In this document: piece by piece, positions 1 to 10,646 of the stretch
Numbering within the stretch: position 1 is the first letter of the stretch
Layout: every line of letters starts with the position of its first letter
Source of the DNA: Hyphomicrobiales bacterium
GTDB lineage: Bacteria > Pseudomonadota > Alphaproteobacteria > Rhizobiales > Aestuariivirgaceae
Direction of reading: 5' to 3'
Assembly: GCA_014380505.1 (NCBI GenBank)
Contig: JACMJT010000107.1
Span: 1 to 10,646, forward strand
Length of the DNA stretch: 10,646 nucleotides
Position numbers and translations under genes: made by a program
The notes under the pieces: generated by a model
The model's input: only the letters and a program-made list of their open reading frames with translations
Databases searched by the model: none
What the model was told of the DNA's origin: nothing

Positions 1-318
1 GCCATCGGCCACGTGTTCGGCGCCGCCATATTCGAAATCGATGGCATGGCCATCGGCGCAAACCACGGCGTAGTGCGAGGCGTTGTGGGTCATCCACAAT
101 TGCATGTTTGAGACATCAAGCGCGTAGCGGATGTTGACGGGATCGTAGAGCAGGATGGCCGCGCAATCGTGCTTCTTCAACTGATCCACCAGCCGCTGCT
201 TGCGGTAGGCGCGCGCCGCCTTGAGCGTCGCATGGGGAAGTGGGCTCTTGAGCGGCTTGTCGGCGCCATCGGCGTTCAGATATGCCTTCTTGCGCGCGTC
301 CTTGAAAATTTCGGGCAT
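1..318 (-). CDS. M24 (creatinase/prolidase-fold) protein, DddP-like, N-terminal part only
   Basis: The first 106 codons of a minus-strand gene that continues past the left edge. The start is ATG at 318-316, preceded by an AGGA ribosome site six bases upstream. Residues 58-78 (YDPVNIRYALD, then NMQLW and HN) and the VCADG near residue 87 closely resemble, from memory, the N-terminal domain of DddP, the M24-family DMSP lyase (DPLNIRYATDSTNMQLW). M24 proteins with this 'pita-bread' C-terminal domain include aminopeptidase P, creatinase, ectoine hydrolase and DddP. The metal ligands and catalytic residues lie in the missing C-terminal half, so neither peptidase, C-N hydrolase nor lyase activity can be decided here. 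It is divergent from the LysR gene, which suggests shared control. Family membership is fairly secure; a DMSP-lyase function is only a possibility. Confidence 0.8.
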   Translation of the reverse strand, partial: MPEIFKDARKKAYLNADGADKPLKSPLPHATLKAARAYRKQRLVDQLKKHDCAAILLYDPVNIRYALDVSNMQLWMTHNASHYAVVCADGHAIDFEYGGAEHVADG

Positions 319-436: not shown

Positions 437-1333
437 ATGGCCAGACGCATGCCTCCCTTCGCAGCATTGCGCGCCTTTGAAGGTGCTGCGCGTTTGGGGA
501 ACTTGCGGCTTTCGGGCGAAGAACTATCGCTATCGGTTTCGGCCATCAGCCACCAGATCAAGTCGCTTGAAGAATTTGTCGGCATTGCACTCTTCCATCG
601 CGACAAGAACAAACTCCGGCTGACTGCGCCGGGCAAGGATTACCTGCTGGAATTGACGCGGGCACTCGATCTTATCGCCACGGCGACCGCCCGGATCGAA
701 CAGGAACGGCACTCCAATAGCGTATCCATCAATCTGTTTTCGTCCCTGGCGGCATTGTGGCTGCTTCCCCGGCTTGCATCCTTCAGGAAGCTGGAACCCA
801 ATGTCGACGTCCGTGTCATTACCACGGACGATCCCATCGACTTCCGGACAGGATTGGTCGACATGGCGATCAGATACGCAAAACAAGCTCCCGACGCCGC
901 AAAAACGGCTCTTCTGTTCAAGGAATCCGTATTTCCGGTTTGTTCGCCGTCTTACCGTGGCGAATTTCTGCGCTTCGATCCCAGCAGCGATCTCTCCCGC
1001 CAAACCCTTATCACCTGCCAGTCATCGCCGGAAGAATGGGCGCAATGGTTCCGCTACATTGGTTTTTCCGGCAAACCGCCGCGCCATACCATCGACGTCG
1101 ATAGCCGGGCCCTGGCACTGGAAGCCGCCATGGATGGTCTTGGCATAGCCATGGGCCGGACGCCGTTTGCCGACCGGGGAATGGCAGCGGGCCGGCTGGT
1201 GCGGTTCAACAAACGCATGTTGTCGACAGGGCAATCCTATTTCCTGGCCATGACCGAGAGCGCCATGCGCAGCAAGGCCGCCAGAAGCTTTTCAGATTGG
1301 CTTGTGGCCCAAACGGGGGAAAAGCACTCGTGA
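437..1333 (+). CDS. LysR-family transcriptional regulator
   Basis: A 298-residue protein of normal LysR length. The N-terminal winged helix-turn-helix spans about residues 5-65, with the LysR-type core SAISHQIKSLEEFVG at 35-49, then LFHR and the wing (RLTAPG). A periplasmic-binding-like effector domain follows from about residue 92 to the end (SINLFSSLAALWLLPRL, later LVDMAIRYAK). This arrangement and wording are closest to the GcvA/AmpR-type branch as I recall it. ATG 437 is preceded by AGGA at 425-428, eight bases away. The gene is divergent from the M24 gene and ends 111 bases before the MttB-family operon in the same orientation. It is probably the local regulator, sensing a substrate or intermediate of the pathway and binding the TTGC/GCAA sites upstream. 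The effector is unknown. Confidence 0.93.
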   Translation: MARRMPPFAALRAFEGAARLGNLRLSGEELSLSVSAISHQIKSLEEFVGIALFHRDKNKLRLTAPGKDYLLELTRALDLIATATARIEQERHSNSVSINLFSSLAALWLLPRLASFRKLEPNVDVRVITTDDPIDFRTGLVDMAIRYAKQAPDAAKTALLFKESVFPVCSPSYRGEFLRFDPSSDLSRQTLITCQSSPEEWAQWFRYIGFSGKPPRHTIDVDSRALALEAAMDGLGIAMGRTPFADRGMAAGRLVRFNKRMLSTGQSYFLAMTESAMRSKAARSFSDWLVAQTGEKHS

Positions 1334-1444: not shown

Positions 1445-2992
1445 ATGGTTTCCCGGCGATCGGAAGATTCGAAATCAAAGCGGGAGGCGCGGCGGGCCTC
1501 CGCATCGAGCGGCCAACAGCCGGCATGGGGCAAATTCCGCAACCCAATGCCGCCATTGGCCATCCTCAACGAGGCAGAACTCACGCTGATCGACGATACG
1601 GCCCTGCGGATACTGGATGAACTTGGACTGGAATTCCAAAGCTCCGAGGCACTCGACATTCTTGAGAAAAACGGCGCGGTGGTCGATCGCGAGACCTCAA
1701 TGGTGCGAATGGCTCCCCGTCTAGTCCGTGAACTGGTGGCGAAGGCGCCGCCCCAATTCGAACTTCATGCCCGCAACCCCGAGCGTTCCGTGACCATGGG
1801 GGGAAACTGGGTGAACTTCGCGCCCGTTGCGGGGCCACCCTATGTCAGCGATCTGGAGCGGGGACGCAGGCCCGGCACCTTCGAAGATCAATGCAACCTG
1901 ATCCGGTTGCACCAGAGCCTCAATGTGTTGCATCTCGCGGGTGCTGCGCCTGTTGAAGCACAAGACCTCCCTGCCGAAACCCGCCATCTCGATTTCTATC
2001 ATGCCCAGATCACACTGACGGACCGTGTATGGAATGCCCGCGCAATTGGCCGTGAGCGCATCGAAGATGCACTGGAAATGATTTCCCTGGCGCGCGGCTG
2101 CTCCCGCGACGCCCTGCTCACTGAGCCAAGCTTGCTGACGGTCATCAACGTCAATTCCCCACGGCGGGTAGACAAGGAACTCCTATCGGGTCTCATGGCG
2201 ATGGCGGAAAACGGTCAAGCTGCTATCATCACGCCCTTCACCCTTGCGGGGGCCATGAGCCCCGTAACTATTGCCGGCGCCCTTGCCCAGCAGACCGCCG
2301 AGGCGCTCGGCGTCATTGCTTTCACGCAAATGGTCCGGCCCGGTGCCCCCGTAATTTTCGGCGGCTTCACGTCAAACGTCGACATGAAATCGGGAGCACC
2401 GGCCTTCGGCACGCCGGAATATGTGCGTGCCGTCATCATCGGCGGCCAAATCTCCCGGCGCTGGAAACTTCCTTACCGGTCGTCAAATGTGACGTCGTCG
2501 AATGCCGTCGATGTGCAGGCCACGGGCGAGTCGATGATGTCGTTATGGGCCGTCATCATGTCCCATGCCAATCTCGTCTATCATTCAACCGGCTGGCTGG
2601 AGGGCGGCCTCACGGCGTCTTTTGAAAAATCGGTCGTCGACGCCGACTTGATCGGATCGATGCGTGCTTGGCTTGAACCACTGGAGATCAGCGAAAGCTC
2701 ACTTGCCTTCGATGCGATAGCGGCAACCGCGCCGGGCGGCCATTTCTTTGGTTCCACCCATACGCTGGAACGCTTTGAAAACGCGTTCCATGCCCCCATG
2801 CTCGCCGATCTTCGGCCCTACCAGACATGGGCGGAAGATGGCGCAAAAACGGCGACGGAGCGCGCCAACAGGGTGTGGAAAAATTTGCTGGAAAACTACC
2901 AGGCGCCACCACTCGATGCGAGCGCGCGCGAAGCCCTTGACGCCTATGTCGCCCGGCGCAAACAAGAGATCGCCCGAACCGGACTATCATGA
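1445..2992 (+). CDS. MttB-superfamily (trimethylamine methyltransferase-like) protein A, non-pyrrolysine
   Basis: A 515-residue COG5598/MttB-type TIM-barrel methyltransferase. Characterised members demethylate quaternary or tertiary amines (trimethylamine, glycine betaine, proline betaine, carnitine-type substrates), passing the methyl to a corrinoid protein. Family hallmarks seen are HARNPERSV near 107, NVNSPRR, ITPFTLAGAMSPVT, FTSNVDMKSGAPAFGTPE at 308-325, SSNAVDVQ at 351-358, GWLEGGLTAS and GGHFFG. There is no in-frame amber codon, so no pyrrolysine. The N-terminus is basic and disordered-looking (about 30 residues), as in the paralogue at 7701. The start is ATG 1445, with only a weak GAAAG ribosome site; an in-frame TAA at 1403 bounds it upstream, and M35 (1547) is a less likely alternative. 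It shares roughly half its residues, by eye, with the paralogue. It overlaps the aminotransferase by ATGA. Substrate unknown; no partner corrinoid gene is nearby. Confidence 0.93.
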   Translation: MVSRRSEDSKSKREARRASASSGQQPAWGKFRNPMPPLAILNEAELTLIDDTALRILDELGLEFQSSEALDILEKNGAVVDRETSMVRMAPRLVRELVAKAPPQFELHARNPERSVTMGGNWVNFAPVAGPPYVSDLERGRRPGTFEDQCNLIRLHQSLNVLHLAGAAPVEAQDLPAETRHLDFYHAQITLTDRVWNARAIGRERIEDALEMISLARGCSRDALLTEPSLLTVINVNSPRRVDKELLSGLMAMAENGQAAIITPFTLAGAMSPVTIAGALAQQTAEALGVIAFTQMVRPGAPVIFGGFTSNVDMKSGAPAFGTPEYVRAVIIGGQISRRWKLPYRSSNVTSSNAVDVQATGESMMSLWAVIMSHANLVYHSTGWLEGGLTASFEKSVVDADLIGSMRAWLEPLEISESSLAFDAIAATAPGGHFFGSTHTLERFENAFHAPMLADLRPYQTWAEDGAKTATERANRVWKNLLENYQAPPLDASAREALDAYVARRKQEIARTGLS

Positions 2993-4209
2993 TGTCTAAT
3001 CCCGCACTGTCGCCCATTCTTGATCTCTTCAAGCCCTCCGCCATTGCGGCCACGATGGCTCTCGCCGCACGCATGCGCGCCGACGGCCGGAAGCTCTATG
3101 ATTTCTCTACAGGTGAGCCGGACTTCGACACGCCCGATCATATCAAGCAGGCTGCAATTGAGGCGATCAATCGAGGCCAAACAAAATATTCGCCCACCGA
3201 CGGCACCATCGCGGTGCGGGAAGCCGTACAGCGCAAGTTCAAGCACGATAACGGCCTGATCTTCGCGCTTCAACAAATCGTCGTGGGAAGCGGCGCCAAG
3301 CCCTTGCTTGCCGATATTATTCGGACACTCGCATCCGACGGTGACGAGATCCTGCTTGCCGCGCCGTGCTGGACTTCTCACGCGGGTATAATCGAGCTCT
3401 CTGGGGCTAAACCGATCTATGTGACGGCCAGTCAGGCGCAAGGCTTCAAGATTACTCCCGGCGCCCTGGCCGATGCCCTAACGGCGCGCAGCCGGGCTGT
3501 CGTCTTGTGTTCACCGTCGAATCCGTCCGGTGCAACGTATTCGGACATCGAACTCGCCGCCATCGCTGAGGTGCTCAGGCTCCGGCCCGATCTGTGGATC
3601 ATCACCGACGATCTCTACGAGCATATCGTATTTGACGGGCGGCGCTTTCGCACAATTCTCAACGTCGCACCGGATTTGGCCGACCGCACTGTGGTCGTTA
3701 ATGGCGTTTCCAAAGCCTACGCCATGACCGGCTGGCGGATCGGCTATGCGGCAGGACCGCCAAAGCTCATGGACGCGGTCCGCAAAATGATGTCACAGGC
3801 CGCAGGCTGCCCAAGTTCGGTCAGCCAGGCCGCAGCCGTTGCGGCGCTTGATGGACCGCTGGACTGTGTACAGGCTTTCGTCGCGGCCTATCAGGTCCGG
3901 CGCAACCGCACGGTGCGCGCGCTCAATCAGTTTCCAGGTATCTCGTGCATTTCGCCGGAGGGTGCTTTCTATGTTTATCCCTCATGTCAGGGCGTTATTG
4001 GGGCGTTCACGGCAAAGGGCGAGCGGATCGATTCTTCCACTGACTTCGCGCGGTATCTGCTGGAAGAGTGGTCGGTGGCGGTGGTCCCCGGCGCCGCATT
4101 CGAACTCGACCCGCATTTCCGCATTTCCATTGCAACCGCCGATGCGGACCTCGATGAAGGCATAGCCCGCATTGGCCGCGCGATATCCGCCTTGAGCAGG
4201 CACCGATGA
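2989..4209 (+). CDS. Class I PLP-dependent aminotransferase (aspartate aminotransferase fold)
   Basis: A 406-residue fold-type I aminotransferase that should move an amino group from an amino acid to a 2-oxo acid in the cytoplasm. All key residues can be placed: the N-terminal GEPDFDTP and KYSPTDG motifs, N178 in SPSNPSG, D207 and Y210 in TDDLYE (contacting the pyridine nitrogen and O3'), the Schiff-base lysine K242 in VSKAYAMTGWRIGY, and the carboxylate-binding R378 in HFRIS. The ATG at 2989 overlaps the methyltransferase stop as ATGA, so translation is coupled; a second ATG immediately follows at 2992. Motifs place it in the AspC-like Ia/Ig group, but these enzymes vary in substrate. Its position between demethylating enzymes suggests it acts on the demethylated amino acid. 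That role is inference. Confidence 0.93.
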   Translation: MMSNPALSPILDLFKPSAIAATMALAARMRADGRKLYDFSTGEPDFDTPDHIKQAAIEAINRGQTKYSPTDGTIAVREAVQRKFKHDNGLIFALQQIVVGSGAKPLLADIIRTLASDGDEILLAAPCWTSHAGIIELSGAKPIYVTASQAQGFKITPGALADALTARSRAVVLCSPSNPSGATYSDIELAAIAEVLRLRPDLWIITDDLYEHIVFDGRRFRTILNVAPDLADRTVVVNGVSKAYAMTGWRIGYAAGPPKLMDAVRKMMSQAAGCPSSVSQAAAVAALDGPLDCVQAFVAAYQVRRNRTVRALNQFPGISCISPEGAFYVYPSCQGVIGAFTAKGERIDSSTDFARYLLEEWSVAVVPGAAFELDPHFRISIATADADLDEGIARIGRAISALSRHR

Positions 4210-4215
4210 GTAATT

Positions 4216-4220
4216 GGAGA
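4216..4220 (+). promoter_or_regulatory. Ribosome binding site fixing the flavoprotein start
   Basis: GGAGA at 4216-4220 sits seven bases before ATG 4228. A TTG two codons upstream at 4222 is in frame but only one base from this site, too close for initiation. ATG 4228, giving MAEITQAK, is therefore the better start. Confidence 0.75.
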
Positions 4221-4227
4221 ATTGTTA

Positions 4228-6654
4228 ATGGCTGAAATCACACAGGCGAAGGTCGTGGTCATCGGTGGTGGCATCGTTGGCTGCGCTATCCTCTATCACC
4301 TGGCCAAGGCCGGCTGGCGCGACGTGGTGCTGCTTGAGCGCAAGGAGCTGACATCGGGATCGACCTGGCACGCGGCCGGCAGCCTTTATTCGCTGACCAG
4401 CCCCTCGAGCACAGTGGTGTTACAGAAGTATACGCGCGATCTCTATCCGGTCATCGAGCGCGAGGCAGACCAGCCGGTGGGCTACCACACGTGTGGCGGC
4501 CTTGTGGTGGCGCGCACCGCCGATGAGGTGACGAAGCTCAAAATCTTGCGCAGCCTGTGCCAGCGCAACGGCATTCCATCCGAATTCATCTCCCCCGAGG
4601 AAGCCAAACGGCGGGCGCCCGTCATCAATACCGATGGTTTGCTCGCAATTCTCTACGAGCCAGAGAAGGGCCACGTCGATCCATCGAGTGCGACGAACGC
4701 CTTCGCCCGTGCCGCACGCAACCATGGCGCCCGCGTCCTGAGGAATACGCCTGTCACCGGCACCCGTCAGCTCGCCTCGGGCGAGTGGGAAGTGGACACG
4801 CCGCAAGGCCCGATCCGCTGCGAATATATCGTCAACGCCGCTGGCCTGTGGGCGCGCGAGGTGGCCGCGCAAGCTGGCATCACGCTTCCCCTCATGCCGG
4901 TCGAACATCATTATCTCGTCACTGATAACATCCCTGAAATCGAAGCCATGGCCGGTGAGCTCCCGACAATTTCCGACGGCGAAGCCAACTGGTATTCGCG
5001 GCAGGAAGGCAAAGGGATACTCCTCGGGGCCTACGAATCCCGTTGTGTGCAATGGGCCGAAAACGGCACACCGCTCGAATTCGCCCACGAGCTGCTTCCC
5101 GATGACCTGAGCCGCATGGAAGAGAACTTCGCGTCCGCCGTGGAGCGCATGCCCTGCCTCGGCAGAACCGGAGTCAAGCGGGTCATCAACGGCCCTATGA
5201 TCTTCTCGCCCGATTTAAACCCGCTGCTCGGGCAATGGCCGGGTAAGCGCGGATATTTTTGCGCTAATGGCGTGATGACCGGATTTAACCAGGGTGGCGG
5301 GATCGGCAAGGTGATCAGCGAGTGGATCATCGAAGGCGAGCCGTCGCTCGATCTTCTTGCCTGGGACGTGGCCCGCTTCGGACCCTGGGCCTCGAAACGT
5401 TACACCAAGGCCAGGTCAGCTTATTTCTATGAACACCGCTCCCACCGCATCTATCCACACCAGCAATTTGAAGCCGGCAGGCCTGTCCGGCAGTTTCCTT
5501 CCTATGACCGCCTCAAGGAGCGCGGCGCAGTCTTCGGCGAAAGTTTCGGTTTCGAATATCCGCTGTGGTATGCGCGATCCGGCGAAGCGGCGCGCGATAC
5601 CTATGGCTACAAGCGGCAGAGCTGGTTTGAAGCAGTGGGTGAGGAAGCCCGCGCAGTGCGTTGTAATGTCGGGCTTTTTGATACATCGACTTATTCAAAA
5701 TTCTTTGTGACCGGTGCCGGTGCGGCGTCCTGGCTCAACCGGATGCTAGCAAACCGTTTGCCAAGTCTGGGCCGGGCGGTGCTCTGTCCAATGCTCTCCG
5801 CCAAGGGCAAGCTCATCGGTGATTTCACGGTGTCATGCCTTGGGGCCGATGAGTATCTCGTTTTGGGTTCGGGGCCGGTGCAGATGATCCACATGCGCTG
5901 GTTCCTGCAAAATCTGCCCACGGACGGTTCCGTCATTATCGAGAACCGGTCGGCATACTGGTGCGGCCTGCATCTCGCCGGTCCCAAATCGCGCGAGCTG
6001 CTACAGACACTCACCACGGACTCCTGCGGCAGCAACGCCATGCCGTTTCTATCAGCCCGCAGAATGGAAGTCGCCGGCTGCCCGGAGGCCATCGTAGTGC
6101 GCGTCTCCTTCACCGGCGAATTGGGTTACGAGATATGGATGCCGTCTACCTACATGGTGCCGGTGCTCGACAGGGTGCTTGAATCCGGCGAGAGCTTCGG
6201 TCTCAAGCTTGCCGGATCGAGAGCCCTGATGTCGCTCAGGCTGGAAAAGGCATTTCCGAGCTGGGGCCTCGAACTCAGTTCCGACTATAGCCCGTGGTCC
6301 ACCAGCCTCGCCCGCTTCGTCAAGACGGATAAGGGAGAATTTATCGGCCGCGATGCGGCAATCGAGCTGAAGAAAGCGAACGGCAGCGTTCGCTTCGCCA
6401 TGCTGACCGTCGATGCGCTGGATGCCGATGCGGTGGGCGGCGAAGCGATTTACTGTGACGACGCTTATGCGGGTTATGCCAGTTCCGGCGGTTTTGGATA
6501 TGCCGTGAACAAGAGCCTCGCGTTGGCCTACCTCAAGCCCGGCATAGCGAGGCCCGATGCCCGCTACGAAATCGAGATCATGGGCGAGCGCCGTCCGGCA
6601 CAGCTCATCATGGAGCCACCCTATGATCCCAGCGGCAGCAAAATGCGCGATTGA
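4228..6654 (+). CDS. Dimethylglycine/sarcosine dehydrogenase-like FAD-dependent oxidoreductase with GcvT domain
   Basis: An 808-residue fusion matching the DMGDH/SARDH architecture. The N-terminal DAO fold (about 8-370) carries the FAD-binding GGGIVG at 13-18 and SGSTWHAAG, where H48 aligns with the histidine that holds FAD covalently in mammalian DMGDH. A central FAO_M-type segment follows, then a GcvT aminomethyltransferase domain (about 470-700) with D532 in LIGDFTV, aligned by eye to the GcvT catalytic aspartate, and FTGELGYE at 628-635, then a GcvT C-terminal barrel. Such enzymes oxidise an N-methyl group to an iminium and pass the carbon to tetrahydrofolate as methylene-THF, with electrons to ETF. 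Length and domain order are full. It lies 18 bases after the aminotransferase and probably removes N-methyl groups left after the MttB-type step. The exact substrate could be dimethylglycine, sarcosine or another N-methyl amino acid. Confidence 0.92.
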   Translation: MAEITQAKVVVIGGGIVGCAILYHLAKAGWRDVVLLERKELTSGSTWHAAGSLYSLTSPSSTVVLQKYTRDLYPVIEREADQPVGYHTCGGLVVARTADEVTKLKILRSLCQRNGIPSEFISPEEAKRRAPVINTDGLLAILYEPEKGHVDPSSATNAFARAARNHGARVLRNTPVTGTRQLASGEWEVDTPQGPIRCEYIVNAAGLWAREVAAQAGITLPLMPVEHHYLVTDNIPEIEAMAGELPTISDGEANWYSRQEGKGILLGAYESRCVQWAENGTPLEFAHELLPDDLSRMEENFASAVERMPCLGRTGVKRVINGPMIFSPDLNPLLGQWPGKRGYFCANGVMTGFNQGGGIGKVISEWIIEGEPSLDLLAWDVARFGPWASKRYTKARSAYFYEHRSHRIYPHQQFEAGRPVRQFPSYDRLKERGAVFGESFGFEYPLWYARSGEAARDTYGYKRQSWFEAVGEEARAVRCNVGLFDTSTYSKFFVTGAGAASWLNRMLANRLPSLGRAVLCPMLSAKGKLIGDFTVSCLGADEYLVLGSGPVQMIHMRWFLQNLPTDGSVIIENRSAYWCGLHLAGPKSRELLQTLTTDSCGSNAMPFLSARRMEVAGCPEAIVVRVSFTGELGYEIWMPSTYMVPVLDRVLESGESFGLKLAGSRALMSLRLEKAFPSWGLELSSDYSPWSTSLARFVKTDKGEFIGRDAAIELKKANGSVRFAMLTVDALDADAVGGEAIYCDDAYAGYASSGGFGYAVNKSLALAYLKPGIARPDARYEIEIMGERRPAQLIMEPPYDPSGSKMRD

Positions 6655-6667
6655 ACAGATGAAGCGA

Positions 6668-6681
6668 AGCACCAACGTGCT
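6668..6681. other. Small inverted repeat in the 63-base intergenic gap
   Basis: AGCAC-CAAC-GTGCT, two perfect 5-base arms, lies in the longest gap inside the operon (6655-6717). It has no following U-tract, so it is not a convincing terminator. It could be a minor RNA hairpin affecting processing or readthrough, or chance. The rest of the gap holds no gene, promoter or ribosome site that I can support. Confidence 0.25.
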
Positions 6682-6717
6682 AATATCCGGAGCCTGTCCA
6701 CTCGGGCCATCCAAACA

Positions 6718-7689
6718 GTGAACCCGCCCGTCTCGCGCATTCTGGTGCACGACGCGGCGCCGGAACCTCTGATGGAGATTCTCCGTCAGCGCCATCCCGA
6801 AGTCAGCGTTTCATCGTGCTCGACCTATGCAGGGCTTGCAGACGCACTTAAGGCCTTCGGCGCCGATATCGTCTATTCGGTGCGGTTTGCGGGAACGCCG
6901 GGCTTTCCCCGGAGCGCCCTCATCGAGGATGGCAATGTGCGCTGGATCGCGGTTGGCGGTTCAGGCACCGATCATCTGGTTCCGTGGGACCCGGCGCGCG
7001 TCACTGTGACCAATTCCGCGGGGGTCGCCGCGGAGATGATGTCGCAATACGCCATCGGCGCCATGCTGCATTTCGCGCTGGATGTGCCGGGCCTCGAGCG
7101 TGACCGCAGGGCACGGCGCTGGCAGTCCCGCAAGATGATGTCTCTCGACGGTAAGACGCTGCTTGTCATCGGGCTGGGGCAAACGGGCCGCGCCATTGCG
7201 CGGCGCGCCAAGAGCTTTGGACTCAACGTGCTGGGTGTCCGGGCGAACCCTCGCGCCACTCCGTTTGTCGACGAGGTGCTGGGTACCGGCGACCTCCACG
7301 TCCTGCTGCCGCGAGCCGACATTGTCGCGGTCTGCCTCCCGCTTCTCGCCACCACGCGCGGGTCCATCGGCGAGCTCGCTTTCCATGCGATGAAGCTGGG
7401 GGCGATCCTCATCGACCTCTCCCGCGGTGGCGTCGTCAATCAGGCGGCATTGATCCGCGCGCTTGAGGGGCGCCGGCTCTCAGGCGCTGCGCTCGATGTT
7501 TTTGAAACCGAGCCGTTGCCGGCAGAAAATCCGCTTTGGCAATTTGAAAATGTGCTTATTTCACCGCACTGCTCTAGTGTCTATGACGGGTGGGAGCTTA
7601 ACTCCATGCGCATGTTCTGTGATAATCTGGAACGCTGGCGGCAGGGCAAGCCCCTGTTTAACATTGTCGACCCGGCTCGCGGGTACTGA
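6718..7689 (+). CDS. D-isomer-specific 2-hydroxyacid dehydrogenase (NAD(P)-dependent)
   Basis: A 323-residue cytoplasmic enzyme interconverting a 2-oxo acid and a D-2-hydroxy acid. The Rossmann motif VIGLGQTG (glycines at 152, 154 and 157) is intact, and the catalytic triad can be placed as R236 in DLSRGG, E265 in FETEPLP and H284 in SPHCSS. The early strand RILVHDA at residues 7-13 argues against starting at the internal ATG (6772, residue 19). The best start is GTG 6718, the only ATG/GTG upstream in the open frame. It lacks a clear Shine-Dalgarno sequence, so expression may be low. The residue after GLG is Q, then T where many members have I. It follows the flavoprotein by 63 bases and precedes the second methyltransferase by 11. 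In context it may reduce the 2-oxo acid made by the aminotransferase; glyoxylate or hydroxypyruvate reduction is an alternative. Confidence 0.9.
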   Translation: MNPPVSRILVHDAAPEPLMEILRQRHPEVSVSSCSTYAGLADALKAFGADIVYSVRFAGTPGFPRSALIEDGNVRWIAVGGSGTDHLVPWDPARVTVTNSAGVAAEMMSQYAIGAMLHFALDVPGLERDRRARRWQSRKMMSLDGKTLLVIGLGQTGRAIARRAKSFGLNVLGVRANPRATPFVDEVLGTGDLHVLLPRADIVAVCLPLLATTRGSIGELAFHAMKLGAILIDLSRGGVVNQAALIRALEGRRLSGAALDVFETEPLPAENPLWQFENVLISPHCSSVYDGWELNSMRMFCDNLERWRQGKPLFNIVDPARGY

Positions 7690-7700
7690 GGGAGATTGGC

Positions 7701-9251
7701 ATGACGGTGACAACAGCGACAAGGGGCAGACGCCGCGGCGGCTCCGGCGCGCGCAGCTCGCAGGACGACCGGCTGCATCAGCTCCCCTGGCGCCGCGTGC
7801 TGAATTCCTATCCCAAGCTTGAAATCTATTCTGCCGACAAGATCGAGGCCATCCACAACACGTCGATGCGCATCATCGAGGAGCTTGGCATCGAGTGCAT
7901 GTCGGCGGCGGCGTGCGACCTGTTCGAGCGGGCGGGCGCCAAGGTCGACCGCAGCACCATGAACGTGCGTCTCGATCGCGGCATTGTGGAGCAGGCGCTG
8001 GCTACCGCTCCGGCCACCTTCACGTTAACACCGCGCAACCCCGAACGCGCCGTCCATTTCGGCGGAAACGATGTTGTATTCGGCCTCGTGGCGGGGCCGC
8101 CCAACGTTCACGATTGCATCCGGGGCCGGCGCAACGGCAACCATGCCGACTACTGCAACTTCATCCGCCTCGCGCATTACTTCAACGCCATTCACATTAT
8201 CGGCAACCAGGTGGTGGCGCCGATCGAGCTACCCGCGAACACGCGCCATCTCGATACGTATCTGGCGAACATCACCTACTCCGATCTTTCCTATCATTGC
8301 ACTTCGATCGGGCGGGGACGGCCGACGGATGGCGCGCGGATGATGGCGATCAGCAGGGGCATCACGCTTGATGAACTGGCGAAATCGCCGGGGGTTACGA
8401 CCATCATTTCCGTGAACAGCCCGCGCCGGTTCGACGAAGCCATGTCTGACGGGCTGACGGCCATGGCTGAGATGGGTCAACCGATTTCCATCACGCCTTT
8501 CACCCTGCTCGGCGCCATGACGCCCGTCACGCTGCCCGCCGCACTGGCCCAGCAGAACGCCGAAGCGCTATTCGGCATAACGCTCACGCAACTCGTCAAC
8601 CCAGGTGCTCCGGTGCTGTACGGCGCCTTTACGTCGAATGTCGACATGAAATCAGGGGCGCCCGCCTTCGGCACGCCCGAGAACACCAAGGCCAATATCG
8701 TCTCGGGCCAGCTGGCGCGCCGCTATGGCCTGCCGTATCGCACGTCCAATACCAATGCCTCAAACGCCGCCGACGCACAGGCGGTTTACGAGACGGAGAT
8801 GGCGCTGTGGGGCGCTATTCTGGGCGGTGGCAATCTGATCTATCACGCCGCGGGTTGGCTCGAAGGCGGCTTGACCGCATCCTACGAAAAACTGGTGCTG
8901 GACGTGGAGATGATCCAGCACATGATGGAATTCCTGCGCGAAGACCAGTTCGACGAGGATTCCCTTGGGTTCGAGGCGATAGCGCGGGTGCCGACCGGAG
9001 GGCATTTCTTCGGAGATCCCCACACCATCGCCCGGTACTCTACCGCCTTCTATCAGCCGCTTGTCTCGGACTGGCGCAACTACGGAGCGTGGATGGAAGC
9101 CGGCGGAAAGGACGCCACGGCGCGAGCCACCGATATCTGGCAACGAGCACTTGCCGAGTACGAACAGCCAGCGCTTGAGCCCGCCATTCAGGAGGAACTC
9201 GCTGCCTATGTCGCCAAGCGCCGCGAGGAGATCGGAACGGGCGAACCATGA
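7701..9251 (+). CDS. MttB-superfamily (trimethylamine methyltransferase-like) protein B, non-pyrrolysine
   Basis: A 516-residue paralogue of the protein at 1445, collinear over its whole length, with the same hallmarks: PRNPERAV, SVNSPRR, ITPFTLLGAMTPVT, FTSNVDMKSGAPAFGTPE at 310-327 (identical in both), NASNAADAQ at 352-360, GWLEGGLTAS and GGHFFG. It starts at ATG 7701 with a strong GGAG at 7691-7694, six bases upstream, which overlaps the end of the dehydrogenase gene region. The basic N-terminus (RGRRRGG) is typical of alphaproteobacterial members. No amber codon is in frame. Family chemistry is methyl transfer from a methylated amine to a corrinoid; the acceptor here is unknown. It closes the operon and converges on the oxidase genes. 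Having two diverged copies suggests either sequential steps, different substrates or a mixed oligomer. Confidence 0.93.
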   Translation: MTVTTATRGRRRGGSGARSSQDDRLHQLPWRRVLNSYPKLEIYSADKIEAIHNTSMRIIEELGIECMSAAACDLFERAGAKVDRSTMNVRLDRGIVEQALATAPATFTLTPRNPERAVHFGGNDVVFGLVAGPPNVHDCIRGRRNGNHADYCNFIRLAHYFNAIHIIGNQVVAPIELPANTRHLDTYLANITYSDLSYHCTSIGRGRPTDGARMMAISRGITLDELAKSPGVTTIISVNSPRRFDEAMSDGLTAMAEMGQPISITPFTLLGAMTPVTLPAALAQQNAEALFGITLTQLVNPGAPVLYGAFTSNVDMKSGAPAFGTPENTKANIVSGQLARRYGLPYRTSNTNASNAADAQAVYETEMALWGAILGGGNLIYHAAGWLEGGLTASYEKLVLDVEMIQHMMEFLREDQFDEDSLGFEAIARVPTGGHFFGDPHTIARYSTAFYQPLVSDWRNYGAWMEAGGKDATARATDIWQRALAEYEQPALEPAIQEELAAYVAKRREEIGTGEP

Positions 9252-9261: not shown

Positions 9262-9549
9262 TTAGAATGGCACGATCCACAGAACCAATGCCTGAAGCAG
9301 CACGGCAACAAGCGATAGCGCCGCGAGAGTCCTTGCTATTTCTGGCATAGATGCGCGGTTGCCATGGGCCAGCCAGAGTATTGCCGTGAGCGCGGCACAA
9401 GCCAAGAGCGTGGCACTCCAGCAGAAAAGCCGGATGCCCATGGGCGAAAATCCGAACGCACCGCCAAAGCCCGCGGCGCCGTAAATAAAACTGAAATGAA
9501 CGAACCAGATGAGCGGTCCATATAGCATCAGCAGCAGCGGGCGCGTCAT
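9262..9549 (-). CDS. Small three-helix membrane protein of the cytochrome oxidase operon, function unknown
   Basis: A 95-residue protein whose ATG (9549-9547) overlaps the TGA of the oxidase subunit I+III gene as ATGA, so translation is coupled. It has three hydrophobic helices: about 4-32 (LLLMLYGPLIWFVHFSFIYG), 39-62 (LFCWSATLLACAALTAILWL) and 72-93 (LAALSLVAVLLQALVLWIV). It has one histidine in helix 1 and one after helix 2, and no CxxxC or cytochrome c motif. I do not recognise the family. Size, topology and operon position suggest an accessory or subunit IV-like oxidase component, or an assembly factor; this is inference only. Confidence 0.75.
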   Translation of the reverse strand: MTRPLLLMLYGPLIWFVHFSFIYGAAGFGGAFGFSPMGIRLFCWSATLLACAALTAILWLAHGNRASMPEIARTLAALSLVAVLLQALVLWIVPF

Positions 9550-10646
9550 CCGGCAATCCTCGGAAAGCCGTGCACAATCAGCAAACCCAATAGGCCCTGG
9601 CCTACCGTGTAATGCCAGAACAGCATGGTGTTGTCGTAGGTTGCCCGCCGCACCGGGCTCAGCATCCCGCTGGCGTTCCGCGCAATCGTATAAAGCCCCA
9701 TGATCAGCGCGGTCAGTACCAGTTGGCCCTCGACGGCAATCACGGTGTAAACGAGCGCCCCGTAGCTGCTGGCGGAAGGGCGCAAGCCGCTTTCCCATTG
9801 GCCGTGGAATTCAAAATAAAGTGCTGCGGCAAGCGCGCAGCAGGCGAGGAGCATGACGAGACGTACAAACCAGTTTCGCGCAAGCATCCGGCCTGCGAAC
9901 ATCACGGCTGCACTGCTCAGGACAAACGCGGTAGCGCTGGCAGCCGGCCAGAGGGTGGCGGGCATTGGCAAACCCGCGGCGGCGGGCCAAACCTCCGGCG
10001 ACACGGTCCAAATGTAAAGATAGGAAAACACGAGAGCGATGAACAGGGATGCCGCAACCAGCAGCAATATCACCATGGCCCACCATGAATGGGAGGTGTT
10101 GCCGGTTACATAAACCGGGAGCGTCATACCGCCTCCGATATCGACAGGTGGATGATTGAGGCCGGGATCGGTCTGCCACAACCAGGCGATGATCATGACA
10201 AGGGCAACCGCTCCGCACGCGAAGGCCAGCGTCACAAGTTTGACCGTTAGCAGGAGGAAAAAGGCGGCTGTGAAAACGGCGGCAAGGAATGACCGCCAGC
10301 TAGGACCCGGCACTTGCAGCACATACTGGGGTATCGCCTCGACCGCGCTGGTGACTAAGGTTTCACGGCCGCCGGTCGGCGCGCCGGGTAGATAGTAGCG
10401 GCCGGCCTCCACGTCGCCGGCAAGTTTTGCGTCGTCCCACAAAGGTTTAAGGGTTGAGACCGGAGGAATGCTGCGCGTTCCGTATGCGTGGTTCGGCAGC
10501 CATTCGAGGGTGCCAGCGCGCCAGACATTTCCGGCAGGCTTGGATGAGGAAAAGCGAAAATTGATTGCCAAGTCCACAAGACACACCAGAACGCCTGCCG
10601 CCACCACGAATGCGCCCATGGTCGAAACAAGATTGTACCACTCCCA
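9546..10646 (-). CDS. Fused cytochrome c oxidase subunit I+III, C-terminal part
   Basis: 366 codons of a gene whose 5' part lies beyond the right edge; the frame is open to the last base (WEWYNLVSTMGAF), so the ATG at 10619 is internal. Residues 1-30 match the last helix of subunit I (NLVSTMGAFVVAAGVL) and NVWRAGTLEW is the usual subunit I tail motif. A linker of about 70 residues follows, then about seven helices arranged like subunit III, with HSWWAMVILLL, FSYLYIWTVSPEVWP and TMLFWHYTVGQ. The subunit III part is divergent: the usual SEV glutamate of its third helix and the GFHGLH motif are replaced (AVEGQL). The fused protein pumps electrons from cytochrome c to O2 in the inner membrane as a heme-copper oxidase; the haem and CuB ligands lie outside the window. 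It overlaps the next minus-strand gene by 4 bases and is unrelated in function to the converging catabolic operon. Confidence 0.88.
   Translation of the reverse strand, partial: WEWYNLVSTMGAFVVAAGVLVCLVDLAINFRFSSSKPAGNVWRAGTLEWLPNHAYGTRSIPPVSTLKPLWDDAKLAGDVEAGRYYLPGAPTGGRETLVTSAVEAIPQYVLQVPGPSWRSFLAAVFTAAFFLLLTVKLVTLAFACGAVALVMIIAWLWQTDPGLNHPPVDIGGGMTLPVYVTGNTSHSWWAMVILLLVAASLFIALVFSYLYIWTVSPEVWPAAAGLPMPATLWPAASATAFVLSSAAVMFAGRMLARNWFVRLVMLLACCALAAALYFEFHGQWESGLRPSASSYGALVYTVIAVEGQLVLTALIMGLYTIARNASGMLSPVRRATYDNTMLFWHYTVGQGLLGLLIVHGFPRIAG

Follow-up and report, generated by a model that had tools for sequence, protein, structure and literature searches.

The window analysed here is the stretch from position 1 to 10,646 of contig JACMJT010000107.1, from a Hyphomicrobiales bacterium of the Aestuariivirgaceae, and its main subject is a five-gene operon that begins and ends with methyltransferases of the MttB superfamily, called MttB1 and MttB2 below. 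With a rough probability of 0.78, this is a LysR-controlled operon for the catabolism of one or more quaternary amines, whose corrinoid protein, RamA-type activator and MtgD-type pterin methyltransferase are encoded at another place in the genome. In the proposed route, MttB1 and MttB2 would each demethylate a quaternary ammonium substrate once and load the methyl group onto cob(I)alamin, carried by an MtgC-type corrinoid protein that would be encoded elsewhere and be common to other MttB paralogues. The cobalt would be kept in its reduced state by a RamA-type activator, and the transfer of the methyl group on to tetrahydrofolate (THF) would fall to an MtgD-type pterin methyltransferase. The flavoprotein of the operon, which resembles dimethylglycine dehydrogenase (DMGDH), would oxidatively demethylate the tertiary or secondary amine so formed to yield methylene-THF; the amino group, once freed, would be taken off by the aminotransferase, and the resulting 2-oxo acid would go to the D-2-hydroxyacid dehydrogenase. 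This is the presumed order of the steps. Judging from the enzyme families, the substrates are most likely betaines of amino acids.

Gene content of the operon and integrity of its methyltransferases

Open frames and Pfam matches place five close-packed genes on the plus strand at 1445-9251, downstream of a LysR gene:

437..1333, plus strand: LysR-type regulator, GcvA-like (PF03466/PF00126)
1445..2992, plus strand: MttB1, non-pyrrolysine MttB-superfamily methyltransferase (PF06253, 632.8 bits, profile 3-499 of 500)
2989..4209, plus strand: class I/II pyridoxal phosphate (PLP) aminotransferase, AatA/AatB-like (PF00155)
4228..6654, plus strand: dimethylglycine dehydrogenase-like flavoprotein with a GcvT (folate) half (DAO, FAO_M, GCV_T, GCV_T_C)
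6718..7689, plus strand: D-2-hydroxyacid dehydrogenase (PF02826, 2-Hacid_dh_C)
7701..9251, plus strand: MttB2, second MttB-superfamily methyltransferase (PF06253, 658.3 bits, profile 2-500 of 500)

With the flavoprotein starting at the ATG at 4228, which is likelier than the TTG at 4222, the spacings in operon order are a 4-bp overlap and gaps of 18, 63 and 11 bp. A packed five-gene operon with an MttB paralogue at each end had been described in a first-pass annotation, and the open frames and Pfam matches bear this out. The same holds for its statement that the operon lacks a corrinoid partner, an activator and a second methyltransferase: the nine window frames scanned gave no match to corrinoid-binding, RACo/RamA or stand-alone pterin methyltransferase families (Pfam; NCBIfam among the matches listed), in a search that reaches to the window limits, 1.4 kb upstream of MttB1 and 1.4 kb downstream of MttB2.

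The LysR gene shares the strand of MttB1 and is separated from it by 111 bp, and LysR genes with 43-44% identity adjoin the MttB1 relatives of two other genomes, G057 and G058. It probably belongs to the operon unit, and the operon is likely under its control; its frame scores 255 bits against the NCBIfam GcvA model, under the cut-off of 288. The best solved relatives of the aminotransferase are aspartate aminotransferases B (6F35, 406 bits) and A (6F77, 379 bits), and its closest named relatives, among the matches listed, come from metagenome-assembled genomes (MAGs) of Aestuariivirga (84%) and then of Hyphomicrobiales (79%). The flavoprotein has the DMGDH domain architecture, DAO-FAO_M-GCV_T-GCV_T_C, with near full-length similarity: mitochondrial DMGDH (5L46) aligns nearly end to end, with 577 bits over 8-800, against 287 bits for dimethylglycine oxidase.

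MttB1 and MttB2 are 50% identical across 487 residues, and both pass the full-length test for PF06253 (cut-off 25 bits). Among solved structures, MttB1 scores 364 bits with 4YYC, presumably a Sinorhizobium meliloti protein, and 323 bits with MtgB 2QNE, the corresponding scores of MttB2 being 328 and 321 bits. In a comparison with 118 other rows, which excluded one very divergent row (L093_12656) kept in the tree described below, both retain every one of the 47 columns with a conservation of 95% or more. The position of Pyl334 of Methanosarcina barkeri MttB is occupied by Val in MttB1 and Thr in MttB2, so that neither qualifies as a pyrrolysine enzyme, and both are under the 525-bit cut-off of NCBIfam TIGR02369, with 282 and 290 bits. 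Tyr and Gly are found in both at the positions of Tyr364 and Gly372 (G372) of the M. barkeri enzyme, the latter being a corrinoid contact (PMC9842639). In the loop near MttB1 345-358, SSNV-TSSNAVD is read against SGGGLNDSKTVD in 2QNE; MttB1 and MttB2 both differ there from 2QNE and 4YYC, a difference that, at the level of sequence, suggests another substrate.

In a tree of 121 rows, built by a quick maximum-likelihood method, MttB1 falls in a clade of 29 rows and MttB2 in a clade of 32 rows, with supports of 100 and 99 in the Shimodaira-Hasegawa-like approximate likelihood-ratio test (SH-aLRT). Neither is found in the clade of 4YYC and the MtgBs that lie beside MtgC or RamA. Relatives of the window MttBs at 94-95% identity exist and are known as proteins alone. 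A search of plasmids with MttB1 gave 197 records, every one less than 60% identical.

Corrinoid genes and RamA in related genomes

In related genomes, MttB genes occur together with the genes of corrinoid-dependent methyl transfer. Twenty genomes were picked from 80 loci (up to 10 kb on each side; tblastn E up to 1e-20), all of which have MttB2-like genes. Each of the 20 genomes has 2-13 PF06253 matches, fragments included, exactly one copy of the RACo_C_ter domain of RamA, and at least one cobalamin-binding cap domain, PF02607. The cap domain is found in a stand-alone frame of 231-563 aa in 19 of the 20; in the exception, G011, only an 87-aa partial PF02607 frame is present besides a 1270-aa frame of MetH size. 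As a control, the RamA domain was matched in one of 14 control genomes, that of Methanosarcina acetivorans.

Furthermore, 101 genomes from the order of G002 fall into 43 with both MttB and RamA, 2 with MttB only, 5 with RamA only and 51 with neither, that is, 45 MttB-positive and 48 RamA-positive genomes (Fisher p = 2.9e-20, without kinship correction). RamA is single in 47 of the 48 RamA-positive genomes, G059 having four, and MttB reaches 13 or more, the counts of 13 in this set being lower bounds. Relatives of MttB1 (E up to 1e-190), with identities of 59-63%, were found in 3 of 397 genomes in the order of G002, where the best three candidates per genome were scored, and in 3 of 103 in the family of G294, five genomes in total; no such relative was found at this threshold in 17 genomes in the order of G014. 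Stand-alone corrinoid frames and RamA are present in all five. One of these genomes, G514, has five RamA-type and seven PF02607 matches, and several corrinoid sets may coexist there. The first-pass annotation had left a choice between a corrinoid partner encoded elsewhere and another acceptor such as free cobalamin or THF; the presence of RamA and the corrinoid cap domain in all 20 MttB2-locus genomes and in all five with MttB1 relatives strongly favours the former. It appears that, in related Alphaproteobacteria, a single corrinoid set serves many MttB modules.

For the MttB1 clade, physical linkage to mtgC is also seen. Genes in the fetched loci were called by a codon-usage script, and names such as MtgC, RamA and MtgD stand for best BLAST matches to reference frames, some of them also scanned with Pfam or NCBIfam. 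In two of six MttB1-clade loci, mtgC and a DUF1638 gene lie directly before mttB1 on one strand. One of them, L061 of an alphaproteobacterial MAG, has a DddP-like gene, mtgC, a DUF1638 gene and mttB1 in this order on one strand. The latter three abut or overlap; mttB1 is cut by the locus end, and RamA lies about 4 kb off on the opposite strand. The other, L090, is a 7.4-kb contig of G489 with mtgC-DUF1638-mttB1. The B12-binding, DUF1638, M24 and RACo domains at mtgC-linked loci were confirmed by Pfam, and the relatives from L061, G489 and G057 fall inside the MttB1 clade of the tree. Thus, the adjoining corrinoid protein and activator that the first-pass annotation had named as counter-evidence to its reading are found for the MttB1 branch in relatives, as mtgC-DUF1638-mttB1 at two loci, and not in the window. 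The remaining loci read LysR-MttB1-aminotransferase-DddP-like in G057 (L084), LysR-MttB1 in G058 (L085), and MttB1 without an adjoining LysR, aminotransferase or MtgC in G294 (L086) and G514 (L091), the last having remote aminotransferase and LysR homologues (26-27%) farther from MttB1.

In total, MtgC lies within three genes of 7 of 122 MttB-family frames: three are MttB1-type, two of which (in L089 and L090) are the same place, and four are best matched to 4YYC, one of them at 27% only. The other components are also found in clusters. For example, MtgC, DUF1638, MetF, MtgD and RamA stand together in a Mesorhizobium locus (L087, G003), as do RamA, MtgD, MtgE, DUF1638 and MtgC in L092 of G057; MtgD, the pterin methyltransferase, was read in L112 and L116 as well.

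Recurrent neighbours and alternative readings

The enzymes of the operon recur beside MttB genes in partial combinations. Of the 122 MttB-family frames, among which some places were fetched twice, 36 have a full-length DMGDH-like gene immediately beside them on their own strand, and 26 of these 36 frames are MttB2-type; after removal at 85% identity, the count is 16 of 82. A 2-hydroxyacid dehydrogenase (52-57% identical) lies directly upstream of MttB2-like genes in 9 of the 80 loci, and an aminotransferase relative (52%) follows directly after the MttB1 relative in G057, one of the six clade loci. In lists of the best 120 protein matches, contigs of equal length (11222, 10239, 1433529, 52835 and 23463), compared by eye, hint that relatives of MttB1 and of the aminotransferase lie on common contigs. 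For MttB1 and MttB2, no same-source pair appeared among lengths above 5 kb in these lists, 5203 and 7311 recurring from different sources.

Several observations weigh against the proposed function. MtgC is not nearby in four of the six MttB1-clade loci and is within three genes of none of the 47 MttB2-type frames, so that the case for a corrinoid acceptor of MttB2 comes from co-occurrence in genomes. No MtgD was read in the 20-kb MtgC/RamA stretch of G294 (L093), a genome-wide MtgD search not having been made, and 2 of the 45 MttB-positive genomes, G036 and G116, gave no RamA match; G036, at 2.8 Mb, may be incomplete, and G116 has a single divergent MttB (E 6.6e-86). At the position of Thr111 of M. 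barkeri MttB, the other corrinoid contact named (PMC9842639), MttB1 has Gly, as does MtgB 2QNE. The full five-gene order, the conservation of which the first-pass annotation had proposed to check in other Hyphomicrobiales, was found neither in the 80 loci nor around the MttB1 relatives in five genomes. Lastly, the catabolism of glycine betaine has no evident need of an aminotransferase and a 2-hydroxyacid dehydrogenase, which makes the substrate a guess. The distance of MtgC from MttB2-type frames would fit the idea that the methyl group from one or both MttBs goes not to a corrinoid protein but, for example, to THF in the GcvT half of the flavoprotein or to free cobalamin, as would the folate-binding protein inside the operon and the lack of a corrinoid gene among the matches listed for the window frames scanned; some characterized superfamily members do methylate supplied free corrinoid cofactor in vitro (PMC8604678). 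This idea is nevertheless very improbable in view of the MttB1-clade genes downstream of mtgC-DUF1638 in L061 and L090, the co-occurrence of RamA and MttB, and the 47 conserved columns and the corrinoid-contact Gly kept in both enzymes; moreover, MtyB methylated MtqC with no detectable methylation of free cob(I)alamin (PMC8604678). A special form of it, in which MttB2 would pass the methyl group straight to THF on the GcvT half and so create a corrinoid-free MttB-type demethylation pathway, is less probable still. A loss of catalysis in both MttBs, which the first-pass annotation had also considered, together with a switch to some other role, could be imagined for two paralogues in an operon without partner genes, and yet it is scarcely credible for proteins that keep 47 of 47 conserved columns, cover the profile almost fully and have close relatives at 94-95% identity.

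Off-site corrinoid transfer being the preferred reading, two alternatives concern the substrate. The operon may serve two quaternary amines, one for each MttB, and may have been joined from two older modules, LysR-MttB1-aminotransferase and 2-hydroxyacid dehydrogenase-MttB2, plus the DMGDH-like enzyme. This is compatible with the preferred reading, which it specifies, and has about an even chance: MttB1 and MttB2 belong to separate supported clades, both gene pairs are found apart in other genomes, and G057 has relatives of MttB1 and MttB2 at separate places, but the MttB1-aminotransferase pair was read in the DNA of one other genome only, and one of the enzymes could have relaxed specificity or be a subunit of a mixed oligomer. 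Or the operon could be a form of the MtgBCD/DMGDH/sarcosine oxidase route, with glycine betaine simply as its substrate. The flavoprotein is indeed closest to DMGDH among solved structures. The surroundings of MttB1-clade genes in L085 and L061 include sarcosine oxidase subunit genes that exceed the soxA and soxB cut-offs, and near an MttB2-like gene in L003 there are divergent relatives of these subunits (900 and 454 bits), which stay under the cut-offs. Glycine betaine remains doubtful, however, since a distinct MtgB that could do that job, with 83% and 75% identity to 4YYC, accompanies MtgC/RamA in G003 and lies beside RamA and MtgD in G057, the loop near 345-358 is unlike that of 2QNE and 4YYC, and the aminotransferase and the dehydrogenase would have no evident task. 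As the only substrate, glycine betaine was considered and is not favoured.

Some neighbouring genes hint at other compounds. In a stretch of Mesorhizobium locus L003 (about 1700-16100), an MttB2-like gene is accompanied by genes for a protein of the dihydrodipicolinate synthase (DHDPS) fold, a 2-hydroxyacid dehydrogenase, an amidohydrolase, and isochorismatase-like and carbamoylase-family proteins, a grouping that hints at a methylated substrate of N-acyl or carbamoyl type. In L006, L009 and L037 (unscanned), the frames resemble those of this cluster in length and N-terminus. In G057, the region upstream of LysR-MttB1-aminotransferase (L084:3-5917) holds genes for a 4-hydroxyproline epimerase (535 bits, cut-off 376) and for D-amino acid dehydrogenase-like, aldehyde dehydrogenase-like and DapA-fold proteins, and the DHDPS-fold gene of L003 lies upstream of its 2-hydroxyacid dehydrogenase-MttB2 pair. 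Hydroxyproline betaine is kept as a lead only, because an opposite-strand MmgE/PrpD gene intervenes in G057.

Two further features flank the operon in the window:

1..318, minus strand: N-terminal part of a DddP-like M24/creatinase-fold protein, running off the left edge (Creatinase_N)
9262-10646, minus strand: membrane-protein-like frames, convergent with the operon

The latter frames gave no Pfam or NCBIfam match at E 0.001. The DddP-like protein recurs beside MttB genes, in the window at 1-318 (minus strand) and at L061:2798-4048, L084:11557-12864 and L074:11548-12846. Its homologue in L061 is 80% identical over 106 aa to the window fragment, so the neighbourhood common to both extends past MttB1, and the gene at 1-318 is possibly part of the functional neighbourhood of the operon. 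The complete proteins of L061 and L084 score 415 and 405 bits and the fragment 75.9 bits against NF043017, the cut-off of which is 600; the name of true DddP, dimethylsulfoniopropionate (DMSP) lyase, was not adopted on these scores of the complete proteins. From its sequence, the protein may act on another onium or amide compound.

Comparison with known systems

A dispersed layout of MttB genes with the corrinoid set encoded elsewhere is already described (PMC12478193; PMC8604678), and it mostly solves the puzzle of the missing partner. The first-pass annotation was right that known MttB/MtgB enzymes need a corrinoid protein, an activator and a second methyltransferase; the absence of these genes from the operon is no oddity, since they are dispersed likewise in Eubacterium limosum and Ruegeria pomeroyi. 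A corrinoid gene missing from an MttB operon is thus no evidence for a new acceptor. Its remark that the biochemistry of this branch is poorly defined holds for the substrate: among the listed titles and abstract openings of open-licence papers, no account was found of the gene combination of the window or of a substrate for either MttB clade. The operon is a good entry to this unassigned branch because its aminotransferase and 2-hydroxyacid dehydrogenase narrow the range of substrates to consider, and the MttB clades are testable by the published corrinoid-methylation assay. Once known, the substrate would extend B12-dependent aerobic methylotrophy by one more methylated compound.

The closest known case is the MtgBCD(E) glycine betaine demethylase/split methionine synthase of R. 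pomeroyi DSS-3, likewise in the aerobic Alphaproteobacteria and, in the portions of the paper drawn on here, with pfam06253 genes apart from MtgC, MtgD and RamA (PMC12478193). According to the same portions, mutants show that mtgC and mtgD are required for growth on glycine betaine and for methionine synthesis; the locus tags of the induced pfam06253 proteins SPO2108 and SPO2134 are scattered from those of MtgC (SPO2160), MtgD (SPO1863) and RamA (SPO2041); and the demethylation products continue to dimethylglycine and sarcosine enzymes. Colocation of mtg-type genes is frequent in other marine bacteria and S. meliloti, and the multiple pfam06253 frames, as many as seven, of genomes that have mtgC and mtgD are taken there as a hint of diverse substrates (PMC12478193). 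Unlike the R. pomeroyi system, the window MttBs share their operon with an aminotransferase and a 2-hydroxyacid dehydrogenase, and unlike the 4YYC-type MtgBs beside MtgC or RamA, they belong to other clades, in a tree that does not include SPO2108 and SPO2134.

MtpB, MtcB and MtyB of E. limosum are similar in another respect. This organism has 42 MttB superfamily members, many of them non-pyrrolysine, and these three share one corrinoid protein, MtqC, the methyltransferases, MtqC and MtqA/RamQ being encoded in separate clusters (PMC8604678). E. limosum differs in being an anaerobic acetogen, and the parts of that paper drawn on here mention no DMGDH-like flavoprotein. At the level of single proteins, near full-length homology, with 321-364 bits, links the window MttBs to Desulfitobacterium hafniense MtgB (2QNE, 9YCE) and to 4YYC. 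The flavoprotein aligns over nearly its whole length with mitochondrial dimethylglycine dehydrogenase (5L46, 4P9S), the DAO and GcvT halves being in the same order; this is a likeness of sequence, and unlike the mitochondrial enzyme, the window protein is bacterial and is encoded in one operon with two MttBs.

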